64,000 bases of DNA from contig JAJRXC010000058.1 of the NCBI GenBank assembly GCA_024276495.1, forward strand, positions 1 to 64,000. The letters run 5' to 3'. Under the pieces are notes generated by a model. That model was not told where the DNA came from. It did no database searches and worked only from the letters and a program-made list of their open reading frames with translations. The stretch is from Actinomycetes bacterium (GTDB lineage Bacteria; Actinomycetota; Acidimicrobiia; Acidimicrobiales; Aldehydirespiratoraceae). Below, piece by piece: positions 32,937 through 35,868 of this stretch (positions are counted from its first letter, which is position 1; every line of letters begins with the position of its first letter). The position numbers and the translations under genes are program-made.

Positions 32937-33821
32937 GTGAACGAGACCGACCCGGCGACGCCGTCCTTCGTGCCCTACGGCGCATTGGCGCTGGGCGTCG
33001 CGCTCCTCGGTCTCGTCGGCTACCTCGGTTTCGTCGTCTACCCGAGCCTGGATCTCTCCGCCGGCGTCGGCGTCGGGCTGATCGCCCTCGCGACGGCCGC
33101 CGGGATCGCGTCGTTCTTCTCACCGTGCTCGTTCCCGCTGCTCGTCGGCATGCTCGGTCGACCGGTCGCCGAGCGAGCCGGGACCGACGGGGCGCGCCGG
33201 TCGACGCGTCGCTCCCTCGCGTTCGCGGCGGCGCTCTCGTTCGGCGTCGTCGTCTTTCTCGGCCTGCTCGGCGCGGTGATCGCCCTGGGTGGCGATGCGG
33301 TGGTCGAAGGCGTCGACTTCACCAGCACGGCCGGCCGGGTGCTGCGGGTCTCGGTGGGAACCTTCCTGATCCTCGTCGGCCTGATCCAGATCGGTCATCT
33401 CCGGGTTCCGCTCCGGCGTTTCCAACCCTCGCTCGAACGGTTCCTCCGGCGTCAACGCCGTGAGAGCAGGGGGCAGGGCCCACCGCGTCTGGGCCGGTTC
33501 GCGCTCTTCGGGTTCGGCTACCTGGCCGCCGGATTCGGTTGAACGGGTCCGATCCTGGCCGGTCTGGTCGGACAATCCCTCGTCGCCGGCGGCGCGACCG
33601 CCGCGCTCGTGGCGTTCGGCATCGCGGCGCTGATGATCGTGATCCTCATGTTCGTCCTCGCCCTGGTCGTCGGCGCCGCGCAGCAACGAACCGTCGATGC
33701 TCTCAAAGCCGGCGCCCCGACGGTGAAGCGGTGGGGCGGGCGGGTCCTGGTGATCGTCGGCGTGTGGTTCATCACCCTGGGCGTCTTCTCCGACTTCTTC
33801 GCCGACGTGTTCCCGGTCTGA
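32937..33821 (+). CDS. ccdA: CcdA/DsbD-type thiol-disulphide transporter with in-frame UGA (candidate selenoprotein)
   Basis: A six- to seven-helix membrane protein that would move reducing equivalents across the membrane. GTG 32937 follows GGAGAGG nine bases upstream. First redox motif: FFSPCSFPLLVGMLG (about residue 61). The codon of residue 202 is TGA (33540-33542) and the same frame continues without a stop to 33821. The residues round it, GYLAAGFG-*-TGPILAGL, align with the family motif ending C-x-GPILA, so UGA replaces exactly the second catalytic cysteine. A hairpin with GGUCU at +19 to +23 after UGA follows. If read as selenocysteine the protein has 294 residues; if not, it is truncated at 201 or a pseudogene. 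Downstream residues retain three hydrophobic helices. Confidence 0.75.
33540..33573 (+). promoter_or_regulatory. UGA codon with candidate bacterial SECIS hairpin
   Basis: Starting four bases after UGA, GUCCGAUC (33547-33554) pairs with GGUCGGAC (33566-33573), eight contiguous pairs with one wobble, enclosing an 11-base loop that ends in GGUCU. A second fold pairs CUGGCC (33555-33560) with GGUCGG (33566-33571) and exposes GGUCU alone. GGUCU occupies +19 to +23 after UGA, the position and sequence I recall for the E. coli fdhF SECIS loop. Confidence 0.6.
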
Positions 33822-35721: not shown

Positions 35722-35868
35722 ATGTCGGCAAAAGATCCCGTGTGCGGAATGGTCATCGAGGAAAAGGACGCAGTCGGCACGAGCGTGCACAACGGCACCA
35801 CCTACCACTTCTGTTCGATGGACTGCAAAGAGGAGTTCGACGAGAACCCCGAGGACTACGCGGACTGA
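35722..35868 (+). CDS. stand-alone YHS-domain protein
   Basis: A 48-residue protein, MSAKDPVCGMVIEEKDAVGT followed by YHFCSMDCKEEFDENPEDYAD. DPVCGM and YHFCS..C are the complete YHS motif, a treble-clef-like metal-binding module often tied to copper or iron handling; the fused C-terminal YHS domain of the copper ATPase at 21532 is a close match. ATG 35722 follows AGGAGAGAG. It precedes nuoA by 38 bases on the same strand and may be the first gene of the complex I-like operon, possibly as a metal donor. Confidence 0.85.
   Translation: MSAKDPVCGMVIEEKDAVGTSVHNGTTYHFCSMDCKEEFDENPEDYAD

Follow-up and report, generated by a model that had tools for sequence, protein, structure and literature searches.

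Positions 32937-33821 of the window, the 64,000-nucleotide stretch of DNA analyzed here (contig C47 of a host assembly of 4.3 Mb), very probably hold a selenoprotein gene, encoding a divergent CcdA-like membrane protein (hereafter Sec-CcdA-like) whose in-frame UGA at 33540-33542 would be read as selenocysteine (Sec) through the SelA, SelB, SelC and SelD of the host and a hairpin similar to that of fdhF. The frame starts with GTG at 32937, meets the UGA in the context GFG-U-TGPILAGL and, as the initial annotation had described, stays open for 279 bases past it. The same annotation reported that the first redox motif (SPCSFP) is intact, and Cys64 is indeed present within it; its further proposal that the TGA occupies the place of the second redox cysteine agrees with the profile of a 50-row alignment of relatives (A2), in which column 202 falls on the second Cys of the CcdA structure 5vkv. 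The features referred to below are:

32937..33821, + strand: Sec-CcdA-like gene, 294 residues with the UGA as putative Sec202, an open frame when TGA is translated as U
33126..33128, + strand: TGC codon of Cys64 in the SPCSFP motif, the first redox residue, invariant in the 50 rows of A2
33540..33542, + strand: in-frame UGA, putatively read as Sec202 and aligned with the second CcdA Cys
33553..33572, + strand: bSECIS-like hairpin of 7 pairs, nt 14-33 counted from the U of the UGA, with a bulged U at nt 17
33561..33565, + strand: apical loop GGUCU (codon GGU in 30/31 and CUG in 31/31 Sec genes), at the same place as in E. coli fdhF and host fdhA
33819-33821, + strand: terminal stop TGA of the Sec-CcdA-like gene, at the end of the frame after the 279 further bases

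Searches for relatives were used to establish how widely the UGA is shared. Close relatives were present in 3 of 51 genomes of the same family (host included), all three with the UGA, and the other same-family genomes with matches held stop-free matches only, at E 1.0e-8 or weaker. Across the phylum, 10 of 396 genomes matched at 1e-20 or better and nine of these, again counting the host, carried a UGA copy, the one matching genome with a Cys copy being G095. Contigs of GTDB species yielded at least 74 matching loci; U stands at the aligned column 202 in at least 36 loci, at least 31 of them distinct after removal of identical copies (window gene included), and Cys in at least 67 other distinct homologues or paralogues. 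The UGA genes come from at least 30 genomes, one of which (G313) has two. Nine loci with identical 75-base stretches (five UGA-bearing, four not), loci with an alignment score below 150 or no residue aligned at column 202, and a frameshifted copy (L057/L058 in G308) had been left out before these counts; L075, whose best segment is short, was kept among the 31 and is absent from both A2 (30 Sec rows and 20 of the 67 Cys rows) and the Sec-only alignment A3 (30 rows). Among the matches listed, 98 of the 99 distinct rows carry either U or Cys at column 202 (31 U, 67 Cys), the exception being the frameshifted copy, and relatives thus show the Cys-or-U column that the initial annotation had proposed to look for. 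By record titles and tree labels the UGA genes belong to Actinomycetota, Chloroflexota, Thermomicrobiota, Acidobacteriota and, in one case, Armatimonadota, where single phylum labels may be wrong because many of the records are metagenome bins. No match to the window protein was found on plasmids at 1e-5, and PADLOC gave no match.

A maximum-likelihood tree was built from 50 rows (30 Sec, 20 Cys). It united the Sec rows in one set with 100/100 support that also took in a single Cys row, L055, placed within a group of eight rows that was itself supported at 100/100. After its TGC the DNA of L055 still has GCCGGTCTGGCC, which fits a Sec-to-Cys reversion that left a hairpin remnant; this hairpin misses the bSECIS energy test (given below). 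A second Sec-CcdA-like copy on G308:C27 (L057/L058) has a frameshift near the UGA site, due to either decay or an assembly error, and an HMA-domain ORF directly upstream. Comparison of the window gene with L010 gave a dN of 0.21 and a dS of 1.05 before the UGA, and a dN of 0.10 and a dS of 0.67 after it; dN was likewise below dS after the UGA when compared with L011, L060 and L047, so the C-terminal part is maintained as protein under purifying selection.

The AlphaFold2 model of the window protein is a helical bundle (pLDDT 82.9), for which the best Foldseek match in the PDB was the NMR structure of CcdA, 5vkv (prob 1.00, E 6.5e-3), with the other 49 rows shown at a prob of 0.15 or less. Among the families compared, VIA-align gave 5vkv a middling Z of 7.6, tied with an integrative YcsG model (7.9) and 6f2w (7.5). 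The A2 profile matched 5vkv alone in the PDB at 0.001 (E 1.6e-8), placing C64 on the Cys of SPC and column 202 on the Cys of PCIGP, and F60, F61, P63, C64, S65, F66, P67, G148, Y195 and C/U202 are invariant in its 50 rows. At both the fold and the residue level, the two redox residues are thereby predicted to lie on different membrane helices within a CcdA-like bundle. The Sec-only profile A3 found nothing in the PDB at 0.001, so the link to CcdA comes from A2, with its Cys rows, and from the fold. Pfam DsbD_TM (PF02683) matched 13 of the 50 A2 rows and did not match the window protein at 0.001; because of this, and of the empty A3 search, the protein is named CcdA-like and not CcdA. What holds of the CcdA-type protein initially annotated is therefore the CcdA-like fold with its redox positions, in a protein divergent enough to be missed by the Pfam model. 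A weak match of the window protein to Pfam 7tm_7, below cut-off, was taken as compositional. In NCBIfam (June 2026) the window protein reached the cut-off of no model, scoring 24.3 bits against ArsG permease (NF040495, cut-off 200 bits).

The GGUCU that had been noted at +19 to +23 after the UGA was borne out, and it lies in strongly conserved codons. Among the matches listed, nt 19-27 after the UGA read GCC in 31/31, GGU in 30/31 and CUG in 31/31 Sec genes, compared with a background in the same genes of 43% GCC among Ala codons, 16% GGU among Gly codons and 43% CUG among Leu codons; the third base of the first three codons past the UGA varies across the 31 genes, and nt 17 is a U in 30 of them. 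In the comparative structure, nt 14-16 pair with nt 31-33 and nt 18-21 with nt 27-30, leaving nt 17 bulged. Paired cells made up 87.6% in the Sec genes and 79.5% in shuffles, and the covariation score was 0.245 compared with 0.120, with none of 500 shuffles as high for either measure. Two pairs changed on both sides, a count that was unremarkable (427/500 shuffles as high), as was the number of pair types (91/500). A single-sequence fold of 46 bases around the UGA was not exceptional (z +0.61, 149/200 shuffles fold as well), so support for the hairpin comes from comparison rather than from one sequence. The eight pairs originally assigned to it have to be corrected to six (-8.1 kcal/mol) in a fixed 24-base stretch and seven in the comparative structure.

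Published constraints on bSECIS elements ask for a stem of at least 4 pairs at -7.5 kcal/mol or lower, a loop of 3-9 nt with a G in its first two positions, and a spacing of 16-37 (PMC13188914, Fig. 2 legend). With its -8.1 kcal/mol, loop GGUCU and spacing of 18 the window gene passes them, and the bSECIS prediction suggested in the initial annotation thus returns a conserved bSECIS-like hairpin. The constraints are likewise satisfied by 24 of the 31 Sec genes, the remaining seven missing the energy or geometry test, compared with 1 of 67 Cys rows, a set that differs in organism and base composition. Rfam reported no SECIS, its sole match at E up to 10 being a snoRNA-type family (E 2.9). A 41-base stretch of E. 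coli fdhF matched 5368 of 5426 E. coli genomes, with all three rows listed annotated as fdhF; it has GGUCU at an equal distance from the UGA, in agreement with the loop and spacing that the initial annotation had likened to the fdhF SECIS.

All four genes of the Sec machinery, named in that annotation as a check, are in the host genome over curated cut-offs: selC (tRNA-Sec; Rfam 64.6 bits, ARAGORN anticodon tca), selB (275.3 bits), selA, which adjoins selB on one contig, and selD. When 11 UGA-bearing genomes (host included) were searched, selA and selB were over cut-off in 10 and selD in all 11; selA and selB were not found in G228, whose assembly is 83% complete. At 1e-60, selA was present in 229 of 396 phylum genomes, including 8 of the 9 UGA-bearing ones, and its co-occurrence would by itself argue only weakly for Sec reading. 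The pattern TGA-N13-T-N4-GGTCTG had three matches in the host genome compared with one in a reversed control, namely the window gene, the formate dehydrogenase gene fdhA and a third site without a plausible gene by eye. The UGA region of fdhA has the GGUCUG signature and the spacing in common with the Sec-CcdA-like gene.

Two further UGA codons were seen in the host. Its SelD (L146, G000:C48:14587-15504) is itself UGA-bearing (HGAG-U-GCKLAP, the only frame retained, with other six-frame readings around selD dismissed), and fdhA (L154, G000:C3:5664-5690) carries its in-frame UGA in NRT-U-HAPSVVGL.

In the reading that we prefer, SelA, SelB, SelC and SelD of the host would decode the UGA at 33540-33542 as Sec, directed by the fdhF-like hairpin just downstream; more than one line of comparison, each independent of the others, backs this selenoprotein reading. 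Programmed truncation, or decoding of the UGA as a different amino acid through a near-cognate or suppressor tRNA, could appeal to the use of UGA as the terminal stop of the same gene. Both are very improbable, since coding selection persists past the internal UGA, the aligned column is confined to U or Cys outside the frameshifted copy, the GGU-CUG element is retained, and the genome has the Sec machinery. A nonsense mutation, a sequencing error or a decaying gene, for which the frameshifted copy in G308 might be cited, is more improbable still and is refuted by the presence of the UGA in at least 31 distinct genes from at least 30 genomes. Retention of the codon in these 31 genes, together with dN below dS downstream of it in all four comparisons, indicates that the gene is not decaying.

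The genes surrounding the relatives point to heavy-metal response. A profile search of flanks placed a MerR-family regulator within 1.5 kb of 17 of the 31 Sec genes and within 5 kb of 19, compared with 0/27 stop-free same-family matches (L012-L038) and 0/27 Cys homologues taken from the GTDB species contigs (mostly archaeal); the profile was built from neighbours of Sec genes and of a Cys locus, which favours finding them, and the controls were searched with the same profile. Flanks obtained for the Sec set averaged 2671 of 3000 and 7133 of 10000 bases, and for 12 of the 31 genes no MerR was found within 5 kb of available flank. Nine regulators that were scanned matched MerR, ZntR, CadR/PbrR and CueR models, all below every metal-specific cut-off. 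In L086, a mercuric reductase (MerA) lies 58 nt downstream on the same strand (TIGR02053, 562.6 bits, cut-off 454.45; HMA-type CxxC and C-terminal Cys pair visible), followed by a MerR-type regulator, and a C-terminal MerA fragment adjoins the Cys locus L055. MerA was over cut-off in 2 of 12 genomes searched: in G108, the sole MerA-bearing genome among the 11 with UGA, where it is on another contig than the Sec gene, and in G095, where the CcdA-like copy has Cys. In each of L048/L140, L075, L052/L067 and the frameshifted L057/L139, an HMA-domain ORF (PF00403, over cut-off) precedes the gene on the same strand at a distance of 0 to 56 nt, and a P-type ATPase is found downstream of L052/L067. 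Among other neighbours, a DF (seleno)protein-type ORF immediately precedes the gene in L143 and further ORFs of this type are near L137, L076 and L084 (62.6 to 72 bits, cut-off 70, one over), ORFs related to one of AhpC-TSA/Redoxin type in L141 occur within 8 kb in L067, L081 and the Cys locus L145, and GR-like flavoproteins are found near L059, L060, L137 and L138.

Scanned neighbours of the window gene itself include genes for a methyltransferase, a Glu/Leu/Phe/Val dehydrogenase and a cyclopropane synthase, and 1.9 kb downstream (35722-35865) there is an ORF with a YHS domain (PF04945, 52.5 bits, cut-off 30.3), a domain type that is often metal-linked. There is no MerR within 5 kb of the window gene and no MerA over cut-off in the host genome. 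The metal link is thus a clade-level feature, with the YHS-domain ORF as its one possible sign at the window locus.

Other observations were made in these neighbourhoods. A recurring neighbour cluster is present in L062, L065, L069, L138 and L144, with one member in L062 matching DUF7482. Small membrane-like ORFs with an LCCG/ICCG/VCCG motif in L059, L060 and L137 look by eye like small mercury transporters, and those of L060 and L059 had no Pfam or NCBIfam match. Directly downstream of MerA in G095, L151:2906-4321 (G095:C16) encodes a second disulfide-reductase-like flavoprotein in which a UGA (L151:3029-3031) replaces the first active-site Cys (VGGT-U-INVGCIPTK), making it a candidate Sec-containing MerA/GR-like reductase; no second case was found at 1e-110 in 392 phylum genomes. 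A TGA in a MerA-like gene of G022:C21 lies at the C-terminal end and is likely its stop.

Cys64 and Sec202 correspond in position to the two redox cysteines of CcdA and would form a Cys-Sec pair in the membrane core. Such a pair may bind or pass a thiophilic metal such as Hg(II), or protect against one, a role whose chances we judge to be about even. Selenolates have a very high affinity for Hg(II) and metals like it, and this would account for the use of Sec in metal loci; the pair could equally serve as a faster electron relay. The corresponding rival reading, to which we give a little under an even chance, is a CcdA-type shuttle in which Cys64-Sec202 would carry electrons from cytoplasmic thioredoxin to a thioredoxin-like protein outside the cytoplasm, possibly when metals or oxidants cause stress, with no metal moved. 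Alignment of both residues with the redox cysteines of CcdA, the only solved relative by profile, speaks for this shuttle, as do the DF (seleno)protein-type ORFs, the redoxin-type ORF of L141 with its relatives and the GR-like flavoproteins. The rarity of MerA in the UGA-bearing genomes counts for the shuttle and against metal handling. Against the shuttle stands the position of MerR beside 17/31 Sec genes and none of the 27 stop-free paralogues or 27 Cys homologues; a pure shuttle would also not need the HMA ORFs that immediately precede three genes and one broken copy, nor the MerA directly downstream of another.

Between thiophilic-metal handling and a thiol/selenol electron shuttle, metal handling is slightly favoured. 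The transmembrane thiol shuttle proposed in the initial annotation thus persists as only one of two live mechanisms, because the neighbours of the relatives suggest heavy-metal response. A more specific form of metal handling is tentative and leans towards the doubtful side: here, the protein would be a CcdA-like, Sec-dependent thiophilic-metal transporter under MerR-type control, the pair accepting Hg(II) or a metal like it from an HMA protein and releasing it across the membrane, where in some genomes a cytoplasmic reductase, for example MerA, would receive it.

Overall, the proximity of many Sec-CcdA-like genes to heavy-metal-response genes suggests undescribed Se-dependent electron or metal handling in the membrane. 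The family adds selenoproteins that would carry selenium within the core of a bundle of membrane helices and ties selenocysteine to metal-response loci, and annotation that takes UGA only as a stop would truncate such genes. The one Cys member nested in the Sec clade provides a natural Sec/Cys contrast, and the family is testable in a laboratory strain because its hairpin resembles that of E. coli fdhF.

The initial annotation knew of no described Sec-containing CcdA. A 2026 review covers 119 prokaryotic selenoprotein families, none of which is named CcdA in its table (PMC13188914), and a term search of the main text of the deep-Sep paper (PMC12013277) returned neither "CcdA" nor "membrane". 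No prior description of a Sec-containing CcdA was found in openly searchable literature. The Sec-CcdA-like family, with high confidence a selenoprotein family, is thus new to the sources searched; its general kind is known, its putative intramembrane Sec is unusual, and its role is possibly metal-related. The nearest entry in the review is TsoB (NF045694), predicted as a rhodanese/DsbD fusion-like selenoprotein with a DsbD-like part. It shows weak similarity to 4 of the 50 A2 rows, and when ten rows were scanned one by one, the Cys row L077 was the only one to align (E 0.0046, profile 190-350 of 572). Unlike the window protein, TsoB is a fusion of 572 positions with two Sec (UxxxxU; PMC13188914, Table 1); the window protein had no match to its model (cut-off 805 bits) at E 1, and no TsoB was found in 392 phylum genomes at 1e-40.

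Among metal transporters, Table 1 of the review (PMC13188914) includes a putative mercuric transport protein that contains Sec (PF02411), and for most of the Sec transporters named in it the review draws a link to resistance against heavy metals or metalloids. The Sec-CcdA-like family differs from such MerT-type transporters in that the 50 A2 rows gave no match to PF02411. Proteins with a CcdA region from Gordonia and Mycobacterium stephanolepidis have been called mercury transporters (PMC12195606, Table 4); selenium goes unmentioned in the passages on them.

The hairpin agrees with the E. coli fdhF SECIS in the spacing from UGA to loop, in the GGUCU loop and in the U at nt 17 (30/31 Sec genes), and differs from it in stem sequence and in that its codons also encode a membrane helix. 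In the fdhF hairpin, the bulged U and the loop have a role in SelB binding. With the CcdA/DsbD transmembrane electron transporters (PF02683; 5vkv), the Sec-CcdA-like protein shares two invariant redox residues at matching places, whereas Sec would replace the second Cys, the model has an extra N-terminal helix, and the clade has metal genes as its neighbours.
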